Part shown: positions 2,284 to 34,799 of the stretch, in pieces | How positions within the stretch are numbered: the first letter of the stretch is position 1 | How the letters are laid out: each line of letters opens with the position of its first letter | Assembly: GCA_025210515.1 (NCBI GenBank) | Contig: JAOARM010000012.1 | Span: 1-64,000, forward strand | Origin: Vallitalea sp. | GTDB lineage: Bacteria > Bacillota > Clostridia > Lachnospirales > Vallitaleaceae | DNA: 64,000 bases | Direction: 5' to 3' | Translations under genes and position numbers: made by a program | The notes under the pieces: model-generated | The model's input: only the letters and a program-made list of their open reading frames with translations | Databases searched by the model: none | What the model was told of the DNA's origin: nothing

Positions 2284-4914
2284 ATGAATTTTAGTAAGGA
2301 ATCTAATAATAAAAAGAAAAAAGAGCTTGAATCAAAATCAAGCAAAGCAACTAAAAGTATAAGCACATCATTTGTAAAAATATTGGCTTTTAGTTTATTG
2401 TTGTTCGTCATTGTAGGTGTTTGTGCTGGCTTAGGATTCGTGAAATCCATTATCGACGCTGCTCCCGAAATTAATGTAGAAGATATTGTGCCAAAAGGAT
2501 ATACATCATTTGTATATGATGAACATGGTTCACAAATTGTTCAATTACAAGGTGCTAATAGAATTTTTGTTGAACTTGATGAAATACCTGAGTATCTTAG
2601 AGATGCTTTTGTTGTAACTGAAGATGAACGATTCTTTAGTCATAACGGAATTGATTTAAAAGGTATAATGAGAGCTATTTTTACTAATATAAAAGAAAAA
2701 AGTCTAAGTGAAGGTGCTAGTACAATAACACAACAATTAATTAAAAATAATGTGTTATCAACTAAAAAGGATTTTGAAAGAAAAATCCAAGAACAATATC
2801 TAGCTATTCAACTTGAGAAAAAATCAGACAAGTCTACAATACTTGAAAACTATCTTAATACAGTTGCTCTAGGTAGAGGAACTACAGGTGTTCAAGCTGC
2901 TGCCCATAAATATTTTAATAAAGATGTACAAGACTTAACTATAGCTGAATCAGCTGTTATTGCTTGTATTACCCAAAGACCTACTTTTTATGACCCAGTT
3001 ATTAATCCTGAAAACAATAAGAAAAAACAACTTGTTGTACTAAAGAAAATGCTTGAACAAGAAAAAATAACAGAAGCACAATATAATGAAGCTATTAACG
3101 AAGATGTATATAACAATATACAAATAGTTAGTAAGAAATTCGATAATTCTTCTAATTATTCATATTATGTTGATGAAGTGATACAAAGAGTAAAAAATGA
3201 TTTAACGATACAAAAAGGATATACTGAAAGTCAAGCTTACAACTTAATATATCGCGGAGGACTTAGCATCTACATAAACCAAGACTTAGAAATGCAAAAG
3301 ATTATGGATGAAGCTTATATGAACGAAGATAATTTTCCTCCAAAAAATGAAGACTATGGTGTAAAACTACAATATAGTTTATCAGTTAATAAACAAGGTA
3401 CTACAAAACATTATTATAAAGAAAACGAATTTGATACAGATCAAGAAGCTCTTGATTATATTGAACAACTTAAAAGCGAGTTAGTAGGTACTGGAGATAA
3501 AATTGTAGCAGAAAAACCTATTTTTGTTCCACAACCTCAATCTGCAATGGCAATTATAGATCATCATACAGGATATGTAAAAGCTATAGCTGGTGGTAGA
3601 GGTAAAAAAGTTGGTAATCAATTATTTAATAGAGCTACTGAAGCAGAAAGACAACCTGGTTCAACATTTAAAATACTAGCAGCATATTTACCTGCTATAG
3701 ATACAGCTGGATATACTTTAGCCACTGTACATGATGATGTACCTACCACTTTCCCTAATCAAAAACGTAACTGGCCAAAGAACTATTATCCTAAATATAA
3801 AGGTTTATCCACAGTAAGACTTGGAATTATAAAATCTATGAACATACTTGCTGTAAAAACCCTTAACGATATTGGTATTCAAACAGGATATGATTATTTA
3901 CTTAACCTAGGATTTTCTACATTATATGATAATGAAGAAATCAATGGGCAAAAATATACTGATAAAGGTTTAGCTCTAGCTCTTGGTGGTATAACTAAAG
4001 GGGTTACTGTATTAGAGTTAACAGCTGCTTATGGTGCTATCGCTAATAATGGTGTATATATTGAACCAACATTCTATACAAAAGTATTAGATCATGAAGG
4101 TAATATTTTATTGAAAAAAGAACCTGTAACTCGTACTGTAATGAAAGAAACAACAGCATTTTTATTAACTAATGCAATGGAAGATGTTCTTAGAACAGGT
4201 GGTACGGGTACAACGGCAAGATTTAGTGGAATGCCAATCGCAGGTAAAACAGGTACAACAACTTCTGAGAGAGATATTGTATTTGCAGGTTATACTCCAT
4301 ATTATTCTGCTGTTGTATGGGAAGGATATGATACACCTAAGAAGCAACGATATAAACGAGGATACCACAAAATGTTATGGAGAGATATTATGGAGAAAGT
4401 TCATAAAGACTTACCAAGAAAAGAATTCACAAGACCATCTGGTATAGTTACTGCTAAGATATGTACAGAATCTGGAAAATTAGCTGTAGAAGGATTATGT
4501 GATCATGACCAAAGAGGTTCTACAGTAAGAACTGAATATTTTGCAAAAGGAACTGTTCCAACTGAACAATGTGATGTACATTATAAATTAACAATATGCA
4601 AAGACTCAGATTTATTTGCTACAGAATATTGTCCAGAAGAAAGCAAAGAAGAAAGAGTGTATATTCAGCGTCCAGTTCCACTTACTCCTGAAAACTTTGA
4701 TCCTCATAGGCCTCCAAATATAGAAGATATTAAGTATGAATTACAACCTTCTAAAATTGGAGAATATTGTAATATACATGGACCAATTATTCAACAGCCT
4801 GATGTTAATTTACCAACTGATTATATAGAACCAACTGAACCAAATAACGGTGAGACTACTACACCTACTGAACCACCTATATTTACACCATTAACACCTA
4901 ATACTACACCTTAA
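2284..4914 (+). CDS. bifunctional class A penicillin-binding protein (copy 1)
   Basis: Polymerises lipid II and crosslinks peptidoglycan at the outer membrane face. It has a basic cytoplasmic tail, a membrane anchor at about residues 32-56, and a GT51 transglycosylase (EDERFFSHNGID with Glu113, GASTITQQ, RKIQEQYLAIQLEK). The transpeptidase has S460xxK in PGSTFK, an SMN motif and K655TGTT. The C-terminal 150 residues are Cys-containing and end in a Thr/Pro-rich tail. The start follows AAGGAGG. A TATAAT box at 2253-2258 is a likely -10, but the -35 is weak. A second copy lies immediately downstream (5096-7822), so this is a tandem duplication. Confidence 0.95.
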   Translation: MNFSKESNNKKKKELESKSSKATKSISTSFVKILAFSLLLFVIVGVCAGLGFVKSIIDAAPEINVEDIVPKGYTSFVYDEHGSQIVQLQGANRIFVELDEIPEYLRDAFVVTEDERFFSHNGIDLKGIMRAIFTNIKEKSLSEGASTITQQLIKNNVLSTKKDFERKIQEQYLAIQLEKKSDKSTILENYLNTVALGRGTTGVQAAAHKYFNKDVQDLTIAESAVIACITQRPTFYDPVINPENNKKKQLVVLKKMLEQEKITEAQYNEAINEDVYNNIQIVSKKFDNSSNYSYYVDEVIQRVKNDLTIQKGYTESQAYNLIYRGGLSIYINQDLEMQKIMDEAYMNEDNFPPKNEDYGVKLQYSLSVNKQGTTKHYYKENEFDTDQEALDYIEQLKSELVGTGDKIVAEKPIFVPQPQSAMAIIDHHTGYVKAIAGGRGKKVGNQLFNRATEAERQPGSTFKILAAYLPAIDTAGYTLATVHDDVPTTFPNQKRNWPKNYYPKYKGLSTVRLGIIKSMNILAVKTLNDIGIQTGYDYLLNLGFSTLYDNEEINGQKYTDKGLALALGGITKGVTVLELTAAYGAIANNGVYIEPTFYTKVLDHEGNILLKKEPVTRTVMKETTAFLLTNAMEDVLRTGGTGTTARFSGMPIAGKTGTTTSERDIVFAGYTPYYSAVVWEGYDTPKKQRYKRGYHKMLWRDIMEKVHKDLPRKEFTRPSGIVTAKICTESGKLAVEGLCDHDQRGSTVRTEYFAKGTVPTEQCDVHYKLTICKDSDLFATEYCPEESKEERVYIQRPVPLTPENFDPHRPPNIEDIKYELQPSKIGEYCNIHGPIIQQPDVNLPTDYIEPTEPNNGETTTPTEPPIFTPLTPNTTP

Positions 4915-5095: not shown

Positions 5096-7822
5096 ATGAA
5101 TTACAGTAAAGAATCCACCAAGAAAAAAGAAAAAGACCTAAACTCTAAGACAAAAAAAGTAAAAAAATCAATAAGCACGTCATTTACAAGAATTATTTTA
5201 TTTCTCATATTATTATCTCTTGGTATATTTATATGTGCTGGACTTGGGATAACGACAGCTGTTATAGATTCTGCACCTAAAATAGATTATAATAAAGATA
5301 TTATGCCAAAAGGATATACTACATTTATATATGATCAGATAGAAAAAGAAATAGCTAAGATTCATGGTACAGATGCTAACAGAATATACGCTTCTATGGA
5401 TAAGATTCCAAAACATCTATGTGAAGCATTTATAGCTATTGAAGATGAACGTTTCTATACACACAAAGGAATTGATTTTAGAGGAATATTTAGAGCTATT
5501 ATTAAAAATATAAAAGAAAAAAATTTAACTGGAGAAGGTGCTAGTACTATAACTCAACAAGTTATTAAAAATAATGTCTTAACTAGTGAACAAACATTTG
5601 AGCGAAAAATTCAAGAACAGTATCTTGCTATTGAACTAGAAAAACGAGTAAATAAACAAACTATTTTAGAAAGTTATCTAAATACTGTAGCACTAGGTAG
5701 AGGAACTAACGGTGTACAATCAGCTTCCCTAAGATATTATAACAAAGATGTATCTAAACTCACTATTGCTGAATCAGCGGTACTTGCTGGTATAACTAAA
5801 TATCCAACTAGGTATGATCCAATATCTAATCCTGATAATAATCGTTCAAGACAAATAATAGTTTTAAAGAAAATGTTAGAACAAAAATCAATCACACAGG
5901 AAGAATATGATGAAGCAATAGAAGAAGATGTTTATTCAAAAATACAAGTAGTGTCAGAAAAAAATACTAAAACTAATTCTAACTACTCATATTTTGTAGA
6001 TGAAGTTATTAAGAGAGTAAAAAATGATTTAGTTACAGAAAAAGGCTATACAGATAACCAAGCCTACGACTTAATCTATCGTGGTGGGCTTAATATATAT
6101 ATAACTCAAGATAAATATATGCAAAATATTGTTGATAAAGAGTTTCTTGATGAATCAAATTATCCTCCTAGAAATGAAGACTACTTAGTGAAATTAATAT
6201 ATAGTCTTTCAGTGCAAAAAAAAGATGATACTATTAAAAACTACTATAAAGAAAAAGAGTTTAAAACAGACGAAGAAGCTAAAGCCTATATTAATGAACT
6301 AAAAAAATTATGGGTTCAAGAAGGAGATTCAATTATTTGTGAATCACCTATATTAGTTCCCCAGCCTCAATCAGCTATGGTAATTATTGATTATCACACA
6401 GGTCATGTTAAAGCTATCGCTGGAGGAAGAGGCGAAAAAGTTGGTAATCAATTATTAAATAGAGCAACAAGTTCAAGACGTCACCCTGGGTCAACTTTTA
6501 AAATATTAGCTGCTTATCTTCCAGCAATAGATACTGGTAAATATACATTAGCTACTGTACTAGATGACGTTCCTTTTACTTATACTCCTTATGAAGATTC
6601 TACTCCTTGGGACGTTCATAATTGGTATGATAGCGATAAATATAAGTATAACTATAAAGGATTATCTACTGTACGTGAAGGTATTACTTGGTCCATGAAC
6701 GTTCATGCAGTAAAAACAATATTGGATGTTGGTATTGATAAATCATTTGACTATCTATTAAACTTAGGCTTCACCTCTTTAGTTGAAAGCAAAGTAATAA
6801 AAGGGAAAACTTACACTGATAAAACACCATCACTTGCACTAGGAGGTCTAACAGAAGGAGTAAGTTTATTAGAATTATCTTCTGCTTATGGAGCAATAGC
6901 CAATAATGGTAAATATGTTGAACCTATATTCTATACAAAAGTATTAGATCACGATGGTAATATTATTTTTGAAAACAAACAAGCAAAACCTCGACAAGTA
7001 ATGAAAGAGACTACTGCATTCTTACTTACAGATGCAATGACAGATGTTATTAAAAAAGGTACTGGAACTATAGTCAAATTTAGAAATGTTAGTATGCCTA
7101 TTGCTGGTAAAACAGGAACTTCCTCAGAAAAAAAAGACCTTGTATTTAGCGGCTATACTCCTTATTATGTAGCAAGTATATGGCAAGGATATGATACTCC
7201 AAAAGACCAAGTATATAAAAAAAGTTATCATAAAATACTATGGAGAAAGATTATGGAAGAAATTCATAAAGGCTTACCTAGAAAAGAATTTAACAAGCCT
7301 GCTGGTATAGTTACCACATCCATATGTAAAGAATCTGGTAAACTAGCTGTTAAAGGTCTATGTGATAAAGACCCAAGAGGTTCAACAATAATTACTGAAT
7401 ACTTTGAGAAAGGTACAGTGCCTACAGAGACTTGTGATGTTCACCATAAACACACTATGTGCTATGCTTCTAACCTTTTTGCAAATGAATACTGCCCTGA
7501 TGATAATAAGTATGAACGAGTTTTTATTGCAAGACCTAATCCTTTAATTAAATCAACATGGGATACACAAAACCCACCTAGAATAGAGGATGCTCAATAT
7601 GAACTTCCTGATATAATAGATAAATACTGTAATGTTCATACATCAAAAAGAATAAAAAAACATATTAAATTACCTTTTGAATTTTTTAAAAACAATAACT
7701 TGACTGATGAAGATATGTATTATATTAATGAAGAAGAGGAAACTAATACACAAGATAATAATAATTTACCTTATACAAACGATGACTATTATTCACCACC
7801 ACCATTTATTTATCAAGAATGA
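5096..7822 (+). CDS. bifunctional class A penicillin-binding protein (copy 2)
   Basis: Paralogue of the gene at 2284, with the same domain order: basic N-terminus, membrane anchor at about 30-52, GT51 domain with Glu116 in EDERFYTHKGID, and transpeptidase with S466xxK in PGSTFK, SMN and K672TGTS. Its transpeptidase has extra residues around DDVPFTYTPYEDSTPWD, and its C-terminal tail is acidic and Asn/Tyr-rich where copy 1 has Thr/Pro. These differences suggest divergence in function. AAGGAGC precedes the start. It is separated from copy 1 by a terminator, so expression may be independent. Whether one copy is sporulation-specific cannot be read here. Confidence 0.95.
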   Translation: MNYSKESTKKKEKDLNSKTKKVKKSISTSFTRIILFLILLSLGIFICAGLGITTAVIDSAPKIDYNKDIMPKGYTTFIYDQIEKEIAKIHGTDANRIYASMDKIPKHLCEAFIAIEDERFYTHKGIDFRGIFRAIIKNIKEKNLTGEGASTITQQVIKNNVLTSEQTFERKIQEQYLAIELEKRVNKQTILESYLNTVALGRGTNGVQSASLRYYNKDVSKLTIAESAVLAGITKYPTRYDPISNPDNNRSRQIIVLKKMLEQKSITQEEYDEAIEEDVYSKIQVVSEKNTKTNSNYSYFVDEVIKRVKNDLVTEKGYTDNQAYDLIYRGGLNIYITQDKYMQNIVDKEFLDESNYPPRNEDYLVKLIYSLSVQKKDDTIKNYYKEKEFKTDEEAKAYINELKKLWVQEGDSIICESPILVPQPQSAMVIIDYHTGHVKAIAGGRGEKVGNQLLNRATSSRRHPGSTFKILAAYLPAIDTGKYTLATVLDDVPFTYTPYEDSTPWDVHNWYDSDKYKYNYKGLSTVREGITWSMNVHAVKTILDVGIDKSFDYLLNLGFTSLVESKVIKGKTYTDKTPSLALGGLTEGVSLLELSSAYGAIANNGKYVEPIFYTKVLDHDGNIIFENKQAKPRQVMKETTAFLLTDAMTDVIKKGTGTIVKFRNVSMPIAGKTGTSSEKKDLVFSGYTPYYVASIWQGYDTPKDQVYKKSYHKILWRKIMEEIHKGLPRKEFNKPAGIVTTSICKESGKLAVKGLCDKDPRGSTIITEYFEKGTVPTETCDVHHKHTMCYASNLFANEYCPDDNKYERVFIARPNPLIKSTWDTQNPPRIEDAQYELPDIIDKYCNVHTSKRIKKHIKLPFEFFKNNNLTDEDMYYINEEEETNTQDNNNLPYTNDDYYSPPPFIYQE

Positions 7823-23986: not shown

Positions 23987-24547
23987 TTGACGGATTCCGA
24001 AATAATAAGATTACTTACTAATCGTTCAGAAAATGCTTTAGTTGAACTACATAAAAAATATGGGAAATATTGCAATAAGATAGCAATCAATATTTTGAAT
24101 AATCATGAAGATAGTGAAGAATGCTTAAATGATGCTTATTTACAAGTTTGGAATAGTATACCCCCTAACAATCCAAAGTCACTATTAGGATATTTAGGAA
24201 AAATAACTAGAAATGTATCATTAGATAAATACAGAGCAAAATCTGCTAAAAAAAGAGGTGGTACAGAAATTGAATATATTCTAGATGAGCTAAAACTATG
24301 TATTCCATCAAATAATAGTGTAGAAAAAGAATATGAAAGCATTGAACTTAGAAATCAAATAAATAGCTTTTTACATTCTATTGAGCCACAGAAACGCACT
24401 ATATTTGTAATGCGATACTACTATGCTTATAACATTAAAATCATTTCTAAAAAATTAAGATTAAACGAGAATACCGTAAAATCAATATTATATAGAACTA
24501 GATTAAAATTAAAAGAATATTTTCAGGAAGAGGGTATAAGCTTATGA
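23987..24547 (+). CDS. ECF-family RNA polymerase sigma factor (SigV-like)
   Basis: A 186-residue ECF sigma factor. Region 2 has NILNNHEDSEECLNDAYLQVWN and region 4 has TIFVMRYYYAYNIKIISKKLRLNENTVKSILYRTR. The TTG start follows AAGGAGG. It overlaps the downstream anti-sigma gene by four bases (ATGA), and an ECF-type promoter lies upstream. Pairing with an RsiV-like protein suggests a SigV role in cell-envelope or lysozyme stress. Confidence 0.93.
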   Translation: MTDSEIIRLLTNRSENALVELHKKYGKYCNKIAINILNNHEDSEECLNDAYLQVWNSIPPNNPKSLLGYLGKITRNVSLDKYRAKSAKKRGGTEIEYILDELKLCIPSNNSVEKEYESIELRNQINSFLHSIEPQKRTIFVMRYYYAYNIKIISKKLRLNENTVKSILYRTRLKLKEYFQEEGISL

Positions 24548-25374
24548 AAAAAGAAGAGAAACTTTTTGAAATGATAGGTCTGATTGATGAAAATATATTA
24601 AAGGAGACTTTAGAAATGGAAAATAAAAATAAAGTAGTTAAATTACCAAAGAAAATTATTAAAATTGTAGCTTCAGTAGCTGTTATTGCATCAATAATAT
24701 TACCTAACACTTCCTCATCTATTGCAAATGCAATGAGTGAAATACCACTAATAGGAAAGTACTTTGAAGTTGTTACAATAAGAAATTTTAATGAAACTAA
24801 AGGAAATAATACAATTAATGTAGAAGTTCCATCTATTAATACAACAGATATGAATGATAACAAAGAAGAAGTAGCATCTAACCTTAATAAATCTGTTGAA
24901 GAATATACTAATGACATAATAGAAAATTTTAAAGAGAATACTAAAGGTGACTTAGGTTCATTAGACCTCTCATATGAAGTAATTCATAATACAAATAAAT
25001 GGTTTACTCTCAAAATATTTGCAACTGAAATTCAAGCAAGTGGACATGAAATAGTTAAATATTATCATATAAATAAAATCACTGATAAAATAGTTAATCT
25101 ATCAGATATTTTCTCTAATGACTCCGATTACATTAGTAAAATAAGTTCTTATATAAAAGAACAAATGCAAATTAGAATAAAAGAAAACGATGAATCATTT
25201 TTTATTATGGAAATAGATGGGGAAGGTTTTTCAACAATAGATAAAAACCAGAATTTCTATTTTGATGAAAATGGAAATCTTATTATCGTTTTTGACGAAT
25301 ATGCTGTTGCTCCAGGATATATGGGTACCCCAGAATTCATTATACCTACAAAAATAATTGATTATAAATTTTAA
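24544..25374 (+). CDS. RsiV-like anti-sigma factor
   Basis: A single-pass membrane protein of 276 residues with a short cytoplasmic N-terminus, a membrane segment at about 38-56 and a large extracellular domain. The C-terminal part (NLSDIFSND...EFDEYAVAPGYMG-like pattern, read here as VFDEYAVAPGYMGTPEF) is the DUF3298/RsiV fold. In Bacillus RsiV binds lysozyme and is then cleaved, releasing SigV. Whether this protein senses lysozyme is inference. It is translationally coupled to the sigma gene. Confidence 0.85.
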   Translation: MKKEEKLFEMIGLIDENILKETLEMENKNKVVKLPKKIIKIVASVAVIASIILPNTSSSIANAMSEIPLIGKYFEVVTIRNFNETKGNNTINVEVPSINTTDMNDNKEEVASNLNKSVEEYTNDIIENFKENTKGDLGSLDLSYEVIHNTNKWFTLKIFATEIQASGHEIVKYYHINKITDKIVNLSDIFSNDSDYISKISSYIKEQMQIRIKENDESFFIMEIDGEGFSTIDKNQNFYFDENGNLIIVFDEYAVAPGYMGTPEFIIPTKIIDYKF

Positions 25375-26602: not shown

Positions 26603-27020
26603 AAATTAATAAAGTTATAAAAAAAATTATTTTATTGAATAGATAAAAATATATATGGATATACTAAATATTACAGGGATGCAAAAGTGATTCATTTTAT
26701 GATAGCTCTTTTATGAATAATAAATTAGCCTTTATATATGGATCAATATCAACCTTCTTCTGGTCTTTATATAAGGGCTAGTTATATAAATTGGTTGTAT
26801 ATTATTAGGTTACTGAGTGTCCCTGTTTACAATATGTTCTCCCCCACATAAGAATACTACATCTGTAGTATTCTTTTTTTGTTACCCATATATTATCTAA
26901 GTACAAGTTTAAATAATTTCAAGAAAATTTCTATCAATAGTACTTATGTTTTCATATAATAAAAGTAATAATAGGCTTTTTTATGAATAATAAAATCGCC
27001 ACTATATAGTGAGGAGACAT
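26603..27020. other. 418-nt gap upstream of split sleC, with repeats and hairpins
   Basis: It holds a hairpin at about 26726-26783 (TAGCCTTTATATA facing TATATAAGGGCTA), the terminator at 26850-26881, and a duplicated 22-nt segment. The segment TTTTATGAATAATAAA...GCC occurs at 26709-26730 and again at 26979-27000 with 20 of 22 bases identical; the second copy ends next to the sleC RBS. CATATAATA at 26953-26961 fits a sigma-K -10 (CATANNNTA), but the -35 is not convincing. Confidence 0.5.
26850..26881 (+). terminator. rho-independent terminator upstream of sleC
   Basis: AAGAATACTAC, a four-base loop and GTAGTATTCTT form a perfect 11-bp stem followed by a run of T. It isolates sleC from the aminotransferase transcript. 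Confidence 0.85.
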
Positions 27021-27932
27021 ATGAAACCAAATCGAATTTATCCTGCTGAGACTTCTACTCAATCTCTAGGAAAGCTTACTCTTAACGCTGTAACTCAGCT
27101 AGGTGCAAAACCTGTTGCAGACGCAAAAGTTACGATAAAAAAAACTACTCCTGGTAATGAATCAGTTGACGTGTTAACAACAAATGACTTAGGTCAAACA
27201 GCACCTATTGAGTTGGAAGCTCCACCTATTGATTATAGCCTTGAACCAAATAGTCCGAAACCCTATTCAGAATATAATATAGAAATAGAAGCAAATGATT
27301 TTGAAACTGTAAAAATAGCTGGAACTCAAATTCTAGGAAATCAATTGGCTATACAAGATGTATCTATGATTCCATCAGTAGAAGTATCTGGAATAAGACT
27401 TACTCAACAAAAAGATGAAGTAATAGCAATAGGTCCTCATACTCTATATGCCGATTATCCACCTAAAATTCCTGAAAGTGAAGTTAAAGAAGATGTTGAA
27501 AATAGTTTAATTGTACTTGACAGACCTGTTGTACCTAGTGCAATAATAGTACATGATGGCACACCTGATGATACTACTGCACCTAACTACTTTGTTCCTT
27601 TTAAAAGCTATATTAAAAATGTAGCATCTTCAGAAATATATTCTACATGGCCTGAAAGCACAATCCAAGCTAATATACTAGCAATTCTATCATTTACCCT
27701 TAATCGCGTTTACACAGAATGGTATAGAGCAAAAGGAAAAAACTTTACAATAACATCATCAACTGCATATGACCATAAATTTATTTTTGGTAGAAATATT
27801 TACAAAAATATATCAAATATAGTTGATCAGTTATTCATTAATTTTATTTCTAGACCAGGTGTTAGGCAGCCTATTTTCACACAATATTGTGATGGAATTC
27901 AAGTTCAATGCCCTAATTGGATGACCTTATAG
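27021..27932 (+). CDS. sleC: spore cortex-lytic enzyme SleC, N-terminal part (gene interrupted)
   Basis: A 303-residue open frame. It holds the SleC prepro region (GKLTLNAVTQLGAKPVADAK), YPPKIPESEVK, and the SpoIID-like catalytic core with SYIKNVASSEIYSTWP, NRVYTEWYRAKGKNF, SSTAYDHKFIFGRNI and TQYCDGIQVQCPNWMT. It ends abruptly at Leu-stop just after WMT, in bases belonging to the inserted element. The remaining C-terminus lies 6.5 kb away at 34413. Splicing at GATGACC gives 428 residues, the size of clostridial SleC. ATG at 27021 follows AGGAGA; a GTG at 27009 is in frame but has no RBS. SleC degrades spore cortex peptidoglycan during germination after activation by Csp proteases. Confidence 0.92.
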   Translation: MKPNRIYPAETSTQSLGKLTLNAVTQLGAKPVADAKVTIKKTTPGNESVDVLTTNDLGQTAPIELEAPPIDYSLEPNSPKPYSEYNIEIEANDFETVKIAGTQILGNQLAIQDVSMIPSVEVSGIRLTQQKDEVIAIGPHTLYADYPPKIPESEVKEDVENSLIVLDRPVVPSAIIVHDGTPDDTTAPNYFVPFKSYIKNVASSEIYSTWPESTIQANILAILSFTLNRVYTEWYRAKGKNFTITSSTAYDHKFIFGRNIYKNISNIVDQLFINFISRPGVRQPIFTQYCDGIQVQCPNWMTL

Positions 27933-27936
27933 TAAT
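27909..27936. other. left junction (attL-type) of sleC element
   Basis: The core GATGACC lies at 27920-27926, with predicted crossover dinucleotide TG at 27922-27923. The left half (GCCCTAATTG) is sleC sequence. The right half (TTATAGTAAT) is element sequence and supplies the stop codon of the truncated gene. Confidence 0.85.
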
Positions 27937-28077
27937 AGTGGTAAATCTTTACACAAAATATGTTTATTATTTACTAAAATGGTGATAATAAGCTTATATT
28001 GAATATCAATGATATAATTAAATCTGTAAAATCAAGTTACCCATTACAGAATTATCTTATACTAAAAAGGTGATAAT

Positions 28078-29202
28078 ATGTGGAAAAAAATATTATGTTT
28101 ATTAATGTCAGTACCCATTATTCTTACTACAGGATGTTGGGATTCAAGAGATATTAATGAGAAATGTATAGTTATTTCACTTGGTGTAGATTATGTTGAT
28201 GAAATGGTTGAGTTCTCTGGTGAAATCGTTAAGCTTACAAAAGCTAAAGGAACAGAAGGAAGTTCAGAAGCTACAGGAGTCTATACACTGCTTTCATATG
28301 GAAAGACATTTGAAGAAGCAAGAGTCAATTATAATTCTAACAATCCATTTCCAACATTTCTTGGCGCAACTAGGGTTGTTGTATTTGGTGAAGATTATGC
28401 TAAACTTGGTATAGAATCCTATCTCAACAGAGTTGATAGTTTATATGATTATAGAAAAACTTTACTTCCTTGCATAAGCCGAGAAGCAACAAAAGATATT
28501 TTTGAAATGGATACACAAAAAGATCTTGCAGTTGGATTTTTAATTGATGATATATTAACTCATCTAAAAGAAGAAGGTCAAGCTATATGTCCTAATATAG
28601 GTAACTTACTTTCTGTTATTGCTTTTGGTTCAGAAGGTTATCTTATTCCATATATAGGTAATGAATTAAACGATATTAAATACCTAGGTCTATGTGTCTT
28701 TAAAGATTCTAAACTTGTTGATATTATCAATATTGAAGATACTAAAGCAATATTATATGTTGTAGGAAATAACACTAAATTTATTGAGCTTATTCCAAAT
28801 CCAATCAATAATAAAAACAAATATTCTTTTCGAGTTACAATAGATAAACGCAAAATCAAAACAGATTACGAAAATGATACCCCTATAATTAATATATCAT
28901 TAAATCTTGATGCGGAATTACGTTATCAGTACTACATCGATCCTATTACTGATGATATGATAAAACAGTTTGAAGATGACATATCAAAAAAAGTAACTGA
29001 TGAAATATTTAATATGATTAAAAGAGCTCAAAAAGATTTTACATGCGATATATTTTCATTTGGAGAAATTTTCAAATCTCAACATTTAAACCAATATAAT
29101 AAAATTAATTGGGAAGATGCTTTCCAAACAGCTATAGTTAATATTGATGTAAAAACAACTGTAGTTAATCAAAACCTAAAAAGTGCCAAAGAAAAGGAGT
29201 GA
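28078..29202 (+). CDS. germinant receptor C subunit (GerAC/GerKC family lipoprotein)
   Basis: A lipoprotein of 374 residues. The signal peptide ends in the lipobox TTGC, followed by WDSRDINEKCIVISLGVDY, a hallmark of the GerAC family. The C-terminal domain (about 215-360) has the conserved FKSQHLNQYNKINWEDAF region. The C subunit sits on the outer face of the inner spore membrane with the A and B subunits. RBS AGGTGATA. First gene of the operon inside the sleC element; the start of the operon is 145 nt from the left junction. Confidence 0.93.
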   Translation: MWKKILCLLMSVPIILTTGCWDSRDINEKCIVISLGVDYVDEMVEFSGEIVKLTKAKGTEGSSEATGVYTLLSYGKTFEEARVNYNSNNPFPTFLGATRVVVFGEDYAKLGIESYLNRVDSLYDYRKTLLPCISREATKDIFEMDTQKDLAVGFLIDDILTHLKEEGQAICPNIGNLLSVIAFGSEGYLIPYIGNELNDIKYLGLCVFKDSKLVDIINIEDTKAILYVVGNNTKFIELIPNPINNKNKYSFRVTIDKRKIKTDYENDTPIINISLNLDAELRYQYYIDPITDDMIKQFEDDISKKVTDEIFNMIKRAQKDFTCDIFSFGEIFKSQHLNQYNKINWEDAFQTAIVNIDVKTTVVNQNLKSAKEKE

Positions 29203-29206
29203 AGCG

Positions 29207-30331
29207 GTGAACTCTTCATTAACTGGTAAACAAATCTCTTATTTATTGTTTGGCATTACTATGGGTTATGCCGTCTTATCCATTCCAAAAAATGTTGCAG
29301 AAAAAGGAGGTACTGGTGGCTGGATGGTAGTAATTGTTGGCGTTATTATTACTATTGTGTTGTCACAAATGTTTATATATGTAGGAACTTACTTCACTAA
29401 TGAGACAATGGATGAATACCTTCCAAAACTTACAGGAAATTTCATTTCCTATTGTATTATAATTATTTTTGCTATATATACATTTTTAGTTGGTACTTTG
29501 ATTGCCAGATTAACTTGTGAAACAATAAGACTTACTATGTTAATTCATACTCCTGTATGGGCTTTGTGTGTTTTATTATTATTTGTATCATTCTATTCTA
29601 TGACGAAAAGTTTTCAATCTTTAGGTCGTATTGCCGAGATTTTTGGAATGATTATTATTATATTTGGAATTATGATTTTTACAATTATTTTTACACAAGG
29701 AAAGATTACTAATATTAAACCTATTTTTGCATTTAGTGAAATTGATTTTTTTGGAACACTATCAGTTATTGGATTCTCATTAACTGGTTTAGAAATATTT
29801 CCTATAATTCCAATGCATAATAACAAAAAAGAGATATCTAAAAATATAATTATTATTCAATTAATTATTGGATTTATGTATATTCTTATTATTGAGTGTT
29901 GTATTTCTGTAATGGGTGTGGAGAGTATTATTAAATATGAAGAAACTCTGTTCGCAACTATGAGAAGAATTGAGCTACCTCAACTACAATTTCTTAAACG
30001 TATAGATGGTATTTTTTTAATTGTATGGTTATTAGCTCTATATTTCACTGTATTATATGAATGTTATATTACAGTATATTTTACTGAAAAATTAATTAAA
30101 GTAAATAAAGCTAGTGATAAAAATAAAAATATTATTATATTAATAATATTTATAATTTCAATTATTGTGTGTCTAGCTCCATCAAGCCTTCTTGAAACTA
30201 AATCAATATTAAATATTATAGGCTATGTTGGTATAGGAATTAATATAGGTTTACCTCTTATACTATTTATACTTACTAAACTAAAGAAAAATAAAAAAAC
30301 AAGGTTTTCTATAGACAAAAAACATAATTAA
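29207..30331 (+). CDS. germinant receptor B subunit (GerAB/GerKB family), first copy
   Basis: An integral membrane protein of 374 residues with about ten hydrophobic helices in an APC-type transporter fold; the B subunit is the germinant-binding candidate. Typical features are LTGKQISYLLFGITMGYAVLSIPKN in overlapping form and GWMVVIVGV. The GTG start at 29207 follows AAGGAG, overlapping the end of the C-subunit gene. An in-frame GTG at 29183 lacks an RBS. It is clearly paralogous to the gene at 31791. Confidence 0.93.
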   Translation: MNSSLTGKQISYLLFGITMGYAVLSIPKNVAEKGGTGGWMVVIVGVIITIVLSQMFIYVGTYFTNETMDEYLPKLTGNFISYCIIIIFAIYTFLVGTLIARLTCETIRLTMLIHTPVWALCVLLLFVSFYSMTKSFQSLGRIAEIFGMIIIIFGIMIFTIIFTQGKITNIKPIFAFSEIDFFGTLSVIGFSLTGLEIFPIIPMHNNKKEISKNIIIIQLIIGFMYILIIECCISVMGVESIIKYEETLFATMRRIELPQLQFLKRIDGIFLIVWLLALYFTVLYECYITVYFTEKLIKVNKASDKNKNIIILIIFIISIIVCLAPSSLLETKSILNIIGYVGIGINIGLPLILFILTKLKKNKKTRFSIDKKHN

Positions 30332-30353
30332 ATATGATAAGGATGTTTATAAT

Positions 30354-31778
30354 ATGATTACTAATAAATATAACAAACATATCAATAAAACAAGATTAAA
30401 AGAATCAGGCATTAGTTCAAGATATCTTAAAGTTAATGATACTACTATTATTGTTTTATTTATAGAACAACTTACTGATAGAGCTGCACTTACTTCTTCT
30501 ATTATAAAACCTTTAGTTCTTAACACTACTAAAAATTTAACTATAGATAAGCTGATGCATTCCGTTATTTTTATGGATGATATGATTACAGATACAGACG
30601 AAAATAAGTTAATAGATTATATATTAAAAGGTCAATCTATTATTATTATTCCCACAGATGAAAAATACTTAATTGCTAATACATTAAAAGTTGAGAAACG
30701 TCAGATACAAGACCCTAGTATTGAAAGTACTATTAAGGGTGCTCGTGATGCCTTCACGGAAAACTATGATAATAATATTTCATTAATAAGATATAGATTA
30801 AAAGACCCTAAGTTACGTATTGATGAATTTGAAATTGGTAAACGTACTTTAACGACAGTTTCGGTTATCTATATTAAAGACATAGCCAATGATGCAATAG
30901 TACAATCTATAAAAGATAAATTATCTAAAATAGATATAGACGGTATATTAGAATCTGGTTATATTCAAAAATATATTTTAAATAATCCACATAACTTTTT
31001 CCCTCAAACTGGTATAGTGGAACGTTCTGATATTGCTTGTGCAAATATATTAGATGGAAAAGTTATCATTCTCGTTGAAGGTGGTAATCTTGCTCTTGTA
31101 TTACCTAAGACATTTATTGAATTTATCGATGCTAGTGATGATCATTATGATAATATAGTTATTAGTATATTTTCAAAATGTATTAGAATATTATGTATAT
31201 TTATTTCATTATTTTTAACTTCACTATATGTGGCAGTTGTTAGTTTTCATCCAGATATACTTCCTGCACAATATATTATTAGTTTAGCTACCTCAAGAGC
31301 CACTGTTCCTTTTAATGCATTTCTAGAAGCTTTTCTAATGGAATTAGTTGCAGAAATTCTTAGAGAAGCAAGTATTAGACTTCCAAAGCAAATAGGACCC
31401 GCAATTGGAATAGTAGGAACTATCGTTATAGGGCAAGCCTCAGTTGCTGCAGGTCTTATTAGCCCTTTATTAGTTATAATTGTGTCTTTATCCTTAATGG
31501 GCTCATTTGCCACAGCTGATTATACTATTACTAATACTATGAGAGTTATTAAATTTTTGATGATAATTATTACTAGTATTTTTGGATTATTTGGATTTAC
31601 TATGGGTATTATATTAATTACTATTAATATCTGCTCTATAGACAGCTTTGGAGTTTCTTATGTTTCACCTTTGTCACCATTTAATTTTACTAGTATAAAA
31701 AACTTATTTCTTAGCGACTCTACTTTATCTAATAAAAGACCTTCTTATTTGAAAACAAAAGATAAGACTAGGCATTAA
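30354..31778 (+). CDS. germinant receptor A subunit (GerAA/GerKA family)
   Basis: A 474-residue protein with a large cytoplasmic N-terminal domain (about 1-275) followed by four or five membrane helices. Conserved GerA segments are FFPQTGIVERSDIACANILDGKV, LVEGGNLALVLP, SFHPDILPAQYIISLATSRATVPFN in overlapping form, EAFLMELVAEILREASIRLPKQIG and IGQASVAAGLISPLLVI. RBS AAGGATG. It lies between the two B-subunit genes. Confidence 0.96.
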   Translation: MITNKYNKHINKTRLKESGISSRYLKVNDTTIIVLFIEQLTDRAALTSSIIKPLVLNTTKNLTIDKLMHSVIFMDDMITDTDENKLIDYILKGQSIIIIPTDEKYLIANTLKVEKRQIQDPSIESTIKGARDAFTENYDNNISLIRYRLKDPKLRIDEFEIGKRTLTTVSVIYIKDIANDAIVQSIKDKLSKIDIDGILESGYIQKYILNNPHNFFPQTGIVERSDIACANILDGKVIILVEGGNLALVLPKTFIEFIDASDDHYDNIVISIFSKCIRILCIFISLFLTSLYVAVVSFHPDILPAQYIISLATSRATVPFNAFLEAFLMELVAEILREASIRLPKQIGPAIGIVGTIVIGQASVAAGLISPLLVIIVSLSLMGSFATADYTITNTMRVIKFLMIIITSIFGLFGFTMGIILITINICSIDSFGVSYVSPLSPFNFTSIKNLFLSDSTLSNKRPSYLKTKDKTRH

Positions 31779-31790
31779 GAGGTGAACTGA

Positions 31791-32888
31791 TTGAATAAAT
31801 CATTAAGTAATAGCCAAATATCATTTATTGTATTTTGTTACACAATTGGATATGGTATTGTATCTCTTCCAAAAAATACAGCTATGAATCTTGGCACTAG
31901 TGGCTGGATTGCAATTGTCATTGGGGATTTAATATTACTTTTCTCTGCTTTTTTATTTCTATACTTAGCAAAGACTTTTAACAATAACACAATATATGAA
32001 TACAGTGAAATTCTCACCGGTAAATTAATAACATATATTATTATATTTATATTTTGTATATATTCTATTTCAACTGCTTCGATTATAACAAGATTATCTG
32101 CTGAAACAATTAAACTTACAATTTTAATAAATACTCCTTCTTGGGCTTTATCACTTATACTACTATCAGTAGTCTTGTATACACTAATTAACGAAATTAA
32201 TATATTAGGAAGGGTTTTTCAAGTAATTGGTATATTTGTTTTAATCACTATATTTTTTACCCCAGTCATTATATTCACTCAAGGTGACATAACTAATATA
32301 AAACCATTTTTTTCAGGGGATATAAAATCAATGATTGATACATTGCCAAGCATAATTTTTCCATTTGTTGGTATAGAGATATTATCTGTAATACCTCTTG
32401 ATTTTAAGAAAAATAATAAACATATTTCGTTGTATATAGCGTTAACTATTTTATTGATAGGAATACTATATGTTATGATAGTAGAATCATGTATCTCTGT
32501 AATGGGAACTAAGAGTATAATAAACTATGAGGATGCATTATTTGCGACTATAAGACGTATCGAATTTGATTTTTTACAGTTCTTAAAAAGATTTGATTCT
32601 ATATTTGTTATTACTAGGCTATTTATTATATATAGCTCAATTGTTTTATCACTCTATATACCTGTTTATTTGCTTAATAAACTATTCCCAAGTATATATA
32701 GAAATTATATTGTAATAACTGTCATTATAATAACATATGTAAGTGGACTTATTCCAAAAACTATGGATGCTTTAAGAACAATACTTAATTATGTTGGATA
32801 TATAAGTATTATTGTTATTATTGTTATCCCTCTATTACTTAGTATAATAACATTAATTAAAAAAAACAGAAATAATAACGCATTATAA
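31791..32888 (+). CDS. germinant receptor B subunit, second copy
   Basis: A 365-residue membrane protein with the same APC-type layout as the gene at 29207 (ISFIVFCYTIGYGIVSLPKN, GWIAIVIGD, EDALFATIRRIEFDFLQFLKR). TTG start after AGAGGTGA, 12 nt after the A-subunit gene. A receptor operon with two B subunits could give alternative receptors with different germinants. It ends 20 nt before the convergent recombinase gene. Confidence 0.93.
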   Translation: MNKSLSNSQISFIVFCYTIGYGIVSLPKNTAMNLGTSGWIAIVIGDLILLFSAFLFLYLAKTFNNNTIYEYSEILTGKLITYIIIFIFCIYSISTASIITRLSAETIKLTILINTPSWALSLILLSVVLYTLINEINILGRVFQVIGIFVLITIFFTPVIIFTQGDITNIKPFFSGDIKSMIDTLPSIIFPFVGIEILSVIPLDFKKNNKHISLYIALTILLIGILYVMIVESCISVMGTKSIINYEDALFATIRRIEFDFLQFLKRFDSIFVITRLFIIYSSIVLSLYIPVYLLNKLFPSIYRNYIVITVIIITYVSGLIPKTMDALRTILNYVGYISIIVIIVIPLLLSIITLIKKNRNNNAL

Positions 32889-32908
32889 TTTACATCACCA
32901 GAGCATTA

Positions 32909-34342
32909 TTATTTCATAATATAATATTCTATAATAATTGTTTTATCATATGAGTTAACTATGATTTTCTTAATAAATGACATTATAGCTATCCTTTTGT
33001 TATATTCTATTAGACTCTTTATATCAGTTATTTCAGATTGTTGGTTATATAGCTTATCATTATTTATATTTTCTTGTGCTGACTTTATAAGGCTATTTAA
33101 CTTATGTTCTTGTTGTTGAATTAATTTTTTATTTTGTCTATATTCTTCTAATGTATCTATTTGATTTATGTAAGCATCTCTAGCAAGGTTATATTTATTT
33201 ACAATAATTGCTTGCTTTTTATATAGATATTCTAACTCACTGTTACTATTATTTTTCTTATTACTTATAATTAACTCTATTATATTCATATCTTCATTGA
33301 TTTTTTTCATTATTGCATCTTCTATTGTCTTAACTTTTATATAATTAGATTTTGTACATGAGCCTTTTAGATATTTATTACATCTAAAATATTCATATTT
33401 ATGATTTACTTTAGTATATGTCATAGTCCCTCCACAAAATGGGCACTTCAATATACCTGCTAACCAATGCCTATAATCAGAATTATGTTTTGTATTTACT
33501 ATAGTTAGTTTTTCTAGTTTATTAATTCTTGATTTTGCACTCTCCCATAGTTTTTTATCAATAATAGGAATATGATTTCCTTTTGCAATAATCCAATCTT
33601 CTTTATTGTTCTCTTTATTATTATTTCTACAATTCCATCTTACATCTCCATAATAAAATGGATTTCTCAAAATATATTTAATAGCTCTTGATTCAAATAA
33701 GTGTCCTTTCTTAGTACGATATGATAAGTCATTAAGGTAAGTGGCAATTTGTCTATATGACATAGATTCATTAACAAATTTATCATATATAATCCTAATA
33801 ACTTCTGCTTCATTTTCAACTATAGTAGGCACTTTACCTTTTAATTCAACTTTATATCCATAAGGAGGGCTTCCTTGAAAACCTCCTCTTTTAGCTTTTT
33901 CTGTCATTCCTTTTCTAACTTCATCGGCTAAATTAAGGCTATAGTATTCTGCCATTGCTTCTAACATACTTTCAAGAATTATAGAAAACTTATCATCTTC
34001 TATTTGTTCCGTAATGCTTATTACTTTTATTCCATATTGCTTTTTTAGTAGAGATTTATATACTACACTATCTTCTCTATTTCTTGAAAATCTATCAAAT
34101 TTATGAACTAATATAAAGTCAAAAGGTCTTGGTTTCTTCTTAGCGTAATTAATCATTTTCATAAACTGTGGTCTTTTTTCTGCTTTTCTACCTGAAAATC
34201 CTTCATCTATAAATATATGCTGTGCATCAATGGCTATATTATTTTTCTCTGCATATTTATATATTGCACTTTTTTGTGCATCTGGTGAAAATTCCAGTTG
34301 CTCATGTGTACTGACTCTTATATATATAGCTCCTTTTTGCAT
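32909..34342 (-). CDS. large serine recombinase
   Basis: A 477-residue site-specific recombinase. The N-terminal resolvase domain begins KGAIYIRVSTHEQLEFSPDAQ, with catalytic Ser11 and the arginines of HKFDRFSRNRED. Next come the recombinase domain (GSPPYGYKVE), a zinc ribbon (CPFCGG...FRCNKYLKGSC) and a coiled-coil region (about 360-440) of the kind that controls integration versus excision in this family. ATG at 34342 has GGTGA upstream; the frame opens at 34384 without an RBS. It lies 70 nt from the right junction, as expected for the element's own recombinase. It is similar in type to SpoIVCA, which excises skin. Confidence 0.96.
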   Translation of the reverse strand: MQKGAIYIRVSTHEQLEFSPDAQKSAIYKYAEKNNIAIDAQHIFIDEGFSGRKAEKRPQFMKMINYAKKKPRPFDFILVHKFDRFSRNREDSVVYKSLLKKQYGIKVISITEQIEDDKFSIILESMLEAMAEYYSLNLADEVRKGMTEKAKRGGFQGSPPYGYKVELKGKVPTIVENEAEVIRIIYDKFVNESMSYRQIATYLNDLSYRTKKGHLFESRAIKYILRNPFYYGDVRWNCRNNNKENNKEDWIIAKGNHIPIIDKKLWESAKSRINKLEKLTIVNTKHNSDYRHWLAGILKCPFCGGTMTYTKVNHKYEYFRCNKYLKGSCTKSNYIKVKTIEDAIMKKINEDMNIIELIISNKKNNSNSELEYLYKKQAIIVNKYNLARDAYINQIDTLEEYRQNKKLIQQQEHKLNSLIKSAQENINNDKLYNQQSEITDIKSLIEYNKRIAIMSFIKKIIVNSYDKTIIIEYYIMK

Positions 34343-34350
34343 ATGATCAC

Positions 34351-34377
34351 CATATATTATTTTATTAATAATATATG
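34351..34377. promoter_or_regulatory. inverted repeat in the recombinase upstream region
   Basis: CATATATTAT and ATAATATATG are perfect 10-bp arms around TTTATTA. They lie between the recombinase start codon and the right junction. On the minus strand CATATATTA also fits a mother-cell sigma -10 (sigma-K CATANNNTA, close to sigma-E CATACANT). The -35 is weak, so it may instead be an operator or RNA hairpin. Confidence 0.4.
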
Positions 34378-34399
34378 ATTGCATTTCATTTTTTAACCC

Positions 34400-34432
34400 A
34401 ATAACTATAAAGATGACCCAATGGGGTAGTAA
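34400..34432. other. right junction (attR-type) of sleC element
   Basis: The core GATGACC lies at 34412-34418 with TG at 34414-34415. The left half (AACTATAAA) is element sequence. The right half (CAATGGGGTAG) resumes sleC in frame. Confidence 0.85.
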
Positions 34433-34799
34433 ATATCGTGGAGATATAGGAAATAACGCTATCGAAATACTTAGATATTTCTATGGAGAAGATATTTATA
34501 TTAATACAGCAGAAGAAGTAATGGGTATACCTGAATCCTTCCCAGGCTATAACCTTAGTGTAGGTTCTACTGGTGCACCTGTTAGAACTATACAATCACA
34601 ACTGAATGCTATTTCAAAAAATTATCCAGCAATTCCTAAGTTAAAAGTTGATGGACAATATGGACAAAAAACAAAAGATGCTGTTGAAACATTCCAGAAA
34701 GTATTCTATCTTCCTGTTACAGGTATTGTTGATTACCCAACATGGTATAAAATATCCGATATCTTCGTTGCTGTTACAAGATTAGCTGAATTAGCTTAG
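34413..34799 (+). CDS. sleC: spore cortex-lytic enzyme SleC, C-terminal part (gene interrupted)
   Basis: Codes for the last 126 residues of SleC plus the MT shared with the core. It starts QWGSKYRGDIGNNAIEILRYFYG and has a peptidoglycan-binding domain (VGSTGAPVRTIQSQLN, KVDGQYGQKTKDAVETFQ) and the end WYKISDIFVAVTRLAELA. An ATG exists at 34413 only because the core is ATGACC; there is no RBS, so it is unlikely to be translated alone. The preserved frame and undamaged sequence suggest selection on the joined gene. Confidence 0.92.
   Translation: MTQWGSKYRGDIGNNAIEILRYFYGEDIYINTAEEVMGIPESFPGYNLSVGSTGAPVRTIQSQLNAISKNYPAIPKLKVDGQYGQKTKDAVETFQKVFYLPVTGIVDYPTWYKISDIFVAVTRLAELA

Follow-up and report, generated by a model that had tools for sequence, protein, structure and literature searches.

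A germinant-receptor operon within a serine-recombinase element that splits sleC in Vallitalea

The window, a 64,000-nt stretch of DNA from Vallitalea sp. (contig JAOARM010000012.1), contains a sleC gene that is divided into 302 and 126 codons by an insert of 6,492 bp, measured from core to core (Table 1). The N half continues for one extra codon beyond the 302 and then meets a stop. A copy of GATGACC is present at each junction, the two copies being 6,492 bp apart, and the insert encodes a large serine recombinase (LSR). These features had been described in a first-pass annotation of the DNA and were all found again in the sequence. When the halves were joined at the GATGACC core, a single open frame of 428 aa resulted, in agreement with the in-frame gene of 428 residues that the annotation had predicted. 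Its statement that the recombinase gene begins 70 nt inside the right end also holds, counted from the inner ATG at 34342.

Table 1. Features of the split sleC locus (positions in the window)
Feature	Position	Strand	Evidence
Possible sleC -10 box, mother-cell type, CATATAATA	26953..26961	+	68 nt before ATG; matches CATANNNTA; candidate
sleC 5' part, 302 codons	27021..27926	+	phmmer 9h68; 75-79% identity to uncut Vallitalea SleC
GATGACC core, left junction (attL)	27920..27926	+	sequence comparison of element ends
GerAC-type germinant receptor subunit	28078..29202	+	Spore_GerAC, TIGR02887
GerAB-type subunit (first)	29183..30331	+	Spore_permease, TIGR00912
GerAA-type subunit	30354..31778	+	GerA, E 1.3e-146; orthologs in 4 sister genomes
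GerAB-type subunit (second)	31791..32888	+	Spore_permease, TIGR00912
Large serine recombinase (LSR)	32909..34384, likely start 34342	-	Resolvase, Recombinase, Zn_ribbon_recom; start by relatives
Possible recombinase -10 box, CATATATTA	34369..34377	-	35 nt before likely start; candidate
GATGACC core, right junction (attR)	34412..34418	+	sequence comparison of element ends
sleC 3' part, peptidoglycan-binding domain	34413..34799	+	ATG at core (34413); PG_binding_1; phmmer 9h68 350-476

Both halves are related to known SleC. They matched adjoining residues of the solved pre-pro-SleC structure 9h68 (61-351 for the N half, E 2.2e-90; 350-476 for the C half, E 1.2e-41; phmmer). Over its full length the joined protein shared 77-81% identity with the SleC of five other Vallitalea genomes, and its alignment with these uncut relatives was gap-free at the junction. 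The C half in the window is stop-free and shares 76-87% identity with uncut Vallitalea SleC, which is within the range of uncut pairs; since the insertion may be young, this conservation alone proves little. The host genome (3.5 Mb in 50 contigs, 94.8% complete) holds a single copy of sleC, so that the intact second gene which the first-pass annotation had named as evidence against its reading was absent from it. As a side observation, two adjacent and similar large genes elsewhere in the window (2284-4914 and 5096-7822) resemble class A penicillin-binding proteins by eye.

The remainder of the insert is one GerA-type receptor operon in the order C, B, A, B, with genes for all three subunit types (A, B and C) present in the element. 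A domain search of its five genes (four Ger genes and one recombinase gene) detected no phage gene, and we dropped the identification of the element as a prophage for that reason. The GerAA protein is encoded once in its own genome. Its orthologs, at 73-81% identity, were found in four of five sister Vallitalea genomes, and among the matches listed, the other GerA proteins of the genus were at most 36% identical to it. In G001, G002, G004 and G005 the receptor operon lies outside and upstream of an uncut sleC, adjoining an aminotransferase gene in all of these except G004, where it is one gene farther off; the first GerAB gene is missing from the operon of G001 and G002. At these slots upstream of sleC the window has no receptor operon. 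By eye, a gene for an ECF-type sigma factor and a second gene are seen beside the aminotransferase gene of the window (23987-25374), at the place where three sister genomes have the ger operon; a sigma factor gene with a partner is also found in the sleC element of G055, to which this pair may be related.

Compared with G004, GerAA (81% identity) is about as similar as the two halves of sleC (79 and 87%), the aminotransferase (78%) and pyrE (84%), and thus gives no sign of recent import from afar. A plainly foreign origin of the cargo was dropped because the sister genomes have orthologs of the receptor. SleC identity sets the window and G003 apart from the four genomes with the operon outside. 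The operon may have been transferred from another Vallitalea.

The first-pass annotation had proposed a search of related genomes for an uninterrupted sleC. The gene was uncut in all five other Vallitalea genomes examined, with frames of 431-446 aa that read C(P/E)NWMTQWGSK across the split codon. Gene order in G003 is the same as in the window (aminotransferase, sleC, LytTR regulator, FloA, NfeD, histidine kinase, pyrE). The annotation had also expected GATGACC at the uncut site of relatives, which was found in part: GATGAC is common there, but the next base is T or A and not C.

The recombinase of the window carries the full set of domains, and its relatives begin at an inner ATG equivalent to 34342, 70 nt from the core. 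The ends of the element form an inverted repeat around the core that pairs at 14 of 18 positions and was equalled in only 1 of 1000 shuffles. Core identity and inverted repeats were analysed in 13 elements, with those of [Ruminococcus] torques and G393 left out. Twelve of the 13, including that of the window, had an inverted repeat about the core (shuffle fraction ≤0.012; the exception, G305, gave 0.139), and in ten the two ends shared 7-14 identical core bases, with fewer in G009, G282 and G357. The consensus of mother-cell-type -10 boxes is CATANNNTA. A candidate box of this type precedes sleC, and a similar CATATA(A/C)T lies upstream of sleC in the seven other genomes compared. The candidate box of the recombinase gene is weak, as CATANNNTA arose in 8.3% of shuffled versions of the 100-nt stretch. 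A reading of the boxes as promoters is weak.

No room for a separate directionality factor was seen in the element of the window, where neighbouring genes are at most 144 nt apart. Such factors are described for SPbeta, the C. difficile skin element and gin. In L035, L077 and L082, an ORF of ~50-60 codons that ends at the recombinase start is a possible directionality factor, and no similar ORF is found at that place in the window. The factor may be a small ORF overlapping other genes or may be encoded elsewhere; that it is missing is the main mechanical worry for excision.

To place the split in a wider context, 392 genomes of the order were surveyed, at least 229 of which had a match to the SleC N half. 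Including the window, sleC is cut at the identical codon in at least 15 genomes (14 others). Among the matches listed, 14 rows had a frame shorter than 390 aa; an LSR element splits 12 of them, and the other two, G028 (in-frame TAG, no insert) and G277 (degenerate), were left out before counting. In the insert-free sleC of G028 (L079), the TAG stands where W-M-T-Q-W has its second W, two codons beyond the ATG of the core. The 80 named loci comprise 74 uncut and 4 split genes (one of them G009 again) and 2 unclassified ones (L163, L173).

In ten of the 15 split genomes the halves are on the same contig, 3.7 to 36.6 kb apart (31.5 kb in [Ruminococcus] torques ATCC 27756), and in five they are on two contigs. 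Each of the 15 has an LSR no more than 0.7 kb away from a half; in G113 it is only a piece at a contig start. All 15 split genes were stop-free and without frame loss when joined; apart from the window, where the join was made at the core, the homologous codon was used, so that the frame follows from this choice and the informative point is that the halves are stop-free. The junction reads W-M-T-Q-W in 14 of the 15 and W-M-R-Q-W in G009. Together with the inverted repeat at the element ends, the 14 other genomes split at this codon argue that the split in the window is more than chance. Two of the genomes, G305 (L080, L188, L191) and G357 (L081, L189, L192), have their halves on separate contigs among seemingly ordinary chromosomal genes, and the stretch in between may be very large or rearranged. 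Twenty-five IMG/VR loci with the SleC N half were also inspected: 17 are cut at the same codon, some of these looking like near-copies, six continue into the C half and two are unclear (L227, L235).

G080 and G061, which belong to one genus, have a common 7.8-kb element in sleC, its common descent being assumed from shared gene order. Between the two genomes, the separated sleC halves share 93.3% and 91.4% identity and have Ka/Ks values of 0.018 and 0.032, compared with 0.015-0.021 for three intact flanking genes; synonymous sites are saturated, and the ratios are therefore rough. Cargo and LSR of the same element share 40-74% identity. Decay would be expected in a gene interrupted for such a time, yet these halves are conserved, which suggests that they are probably used as one gene. 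With both halves under selection in this pair and the C half conserved in the window, we dropped the idea of a dead insertion.

The nearest relatives of the sleC recombinases outside sleC are those of a Cys-rich gene. Thirteen LSRs from sleC and 11 from the Cys-rich gene form one clade (100/99), separate from four other LSRs of the window's own genome, whose branches are very long. Nine sleC LSRs form a clade of their own (100/99), and the LSR of the window falls outside it. Target labels are clustered on the tree (0 of 500 shuffles as low). A match to the LSR at 1e-90 or better was present in 54 of the 392 genomes. At the best 30 loci, the neighbouring gene piece belonged to sleC (7), the Cys-rich gene (7), cotJC (9), an NMT1-like gene (4) or a polysaccharide deacetylase gene (2, one assigned by Pfam and one by eye), and L246 was left without a host gene assignment. 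Of the nine cotJC assignments, three come from Mn_catalase matches, two from homology to those three and four from CotJA/CotJB beside a CotJC-like start seen by eye (two of these four being near-copies).

Several further splits were noted in passing. Related LSRs split cotJC, of the coat manganese catalase family, at L244, L249, L251-L256 and L263, and at L251 and L263 the second piece seems cut again. The Cys-rich gene, which had no Pfam family and whose relatives bear the source names 'hypothetical' or 'uncharacterized', is in two to three pieces with one or two LSR elements at L036-L045 (G001-G005, G007, G008). The sigK gene is present and uncut in the genome of the window; skin-like splits of sigK were seen at G002:C14:95739-107627 (halves 11.2 kb apart) and G005:C21:67493-73776 (5.6 kb).

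Cargo was compared over nine sleC elements, all or most of each being covered. Germination genes were found in two of them, that of the window and L113 (Anaerocolumna sp.), which encodes a protein like the protease CspB (L113:13486-15192; 4i0w, E 1.1e-72). CspB is reported to mature pro-SleC in C. perfringens and C. difficile (PMC3789822). Other elements carry an acetyltransferase gene (G009), a sigma factor gene with a DUF4367 protein partner (G055), an SMR transporter gene (G035), or genes for pilin-like proteins and sortases (assigned by Pfam in G061 and by homology in G080). The inserts of G253 and G378 contain genes judged phage-like by eye.

We consider it likely that the LSR excises the receptor-bearing element during sporulation, most probably in the mother cell, giving an intact sleC there; by analogy with skin, gin and SPbeta, this is our best reading of the locus. 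In Bacillus, germinant-receptor operons are expressed in the forespore under sigma-G. The recombinase would join attL and attR at GATGACC and free a 6.5-kb circle. Excision would occur in the mother cell, the compartment in which SleC is made under sigma-K in C. difficile, and the forespore chromosome would stay unrearranged, keeping the receptor operon and handing on the split gene. SleC would then come from the excised locus of the mother cell and the receptor from the unexcised locus of the forespore. In C. difficile, sleC is assigned to the mother-cell sigma-K regulon (PMC3789822), and mother-cell expression of sleC in the window is taken by analogy with it; elements of this kind are described as leaving the mother-cell chromosome, the spore chromosome being unrearranged (PMC4191935).

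The first-pass annotation had put sleC forward as a further target of developmental rearrangement; it mentioned neither the receptor operon inside the element, nor the recurrence of the split at this codon, nor the related LSRs in other genes. The part of this proposal that concerns rejoining into a working gene is well supported by the same split in at least 15 genomes, the five uncut sisters, the single copy and purifying selection in G080 and G061. We infer the mother-cell timing from the place of sleC in the sigma-K regulon of C. difficile and from the known systems. Related LSRs in cotJC (9 of the best 30 loci) and the uncut sigK of the genome favour our best explanation. The presence of LSRs of this clade in genes not known as spore genes (NMT1-like, 4 of those loci) counts against it, as do the four SleB/CwlJ-type hydrolase genes of the genome. 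We also propose, tentatively and as a possibility, that the element is a developmental DNA switch enclosing the host's own receptor, such that the locus would exist in two versions per sporangium; germ-line loss of the cassette would then mean loss of the receptor, tying the element to germination of its host.

It is also conceivable, and in our view unlikely, that the element excises and restores sleC outside development, randomly or on stress during growth, and that germinating spores stem from element-free cells. The prophage-like inserts seen by eye in G253 and G378 and the 17 of 25 IMG/VR loci cut at this codon speak for such a course and make ordinary phage excision likely for the phage-like inserts; the weak promoter reading of the element also speaks for it. 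Against it, the element of the window has no phage gene, and a line from which it was excised would lose its single-copy receptor operon.

More doubtful still is a dead end, in which a mobile element has entered a conserved target codon, sleC is lost, and germination proceeds by SleB/CwlJ-type enzymes or scarcely at all. Conserved gene segments are common targets of integrases, and LSRs of the clade also reside inside genes of no known spore role. The genome of the window has four SleB/CwlJ-type hydrolase (Hydrolase_2) genes, so that spores might germinate without SleC. Such a fate, however, fits poorly with the strong selection on both separated halves in G080 and G061, despite their saturated synonymous sites, and with the stop-free halves and intact frames of all 15 split genes. 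That no rearrangement takes place, the halves acting as two polypeptides or the split being an assembly error, is very improbable: the C half does have its own ATG at the core, but the split lies within the most conserved stretch of SleC, recurs identically across 15 separate assemblies, accompanied by an LSR and an att site with an inverted repeat, and has both junctions far from the ends of a 111.7-kb contig.

Excision in the mother cell would place sleC beside the split spore genes already described, namely sigK, spsM, spoVFB, spoVR, gerE and yabG (PMC5025042, PMC4191935, PMC5595907, PMC10747680). Like the sleC element, skin (sigK; B. subtilis, C. difficile) is an insert in a mother-cell gene with an internal serine recombinase and in-frame rejoining, and it is reported to stay uncut in the spore (PMC5025042, PMC4191935). 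Unlike skin, the sleC element targets a germination enzyme and not a sigma factor, is without phage genes, has no directionality factor that we could find, and carries a germinant-receptor operon. The gin element (gerE, Bacillus cereus) is likewise a non-phage intervening element in a mother-cell gene, described as rejoined in sporulation (PMC5595907); it is described as 28.6 kb long, encoding GirX as its directionality factor along with three recombinases, whereas the element of the window is 6.5 kb with one recombinase and no such factor found. SPbeta in spsM (PMC4191935) and yin in yabG of C. botulinum (PMC10747680) are reported as prophage or prophage-like inserts that split spore genes. 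The larger sleC inserts of G253 and G378 resemble this type, from which the element of the window differs in its different target gene and its freedom from phage genes. A literature search of open-licence PMC papers found no paper on a split sleC, which is no proof of absence. On our reading, sleC would be a new target, and the receptor operon a new cargo, of a known kind of rearrangement.

If our reading is true, a germination-enzyme gene joins the few spore genes known to be split and later rebuilt, a single codon has been struck again and again in an order with members from the human gut, and an element of this kind holds a receptor from the same pathway as the gene it interrupts. A cultured type strain, [Ruminococcus] torques ATCC 27756, is available for testing this reading. 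Viral contigs can bear halves of host spore genes at their ends, and a strain whose genome shows a split sleC is not necessarily unable to germinate.
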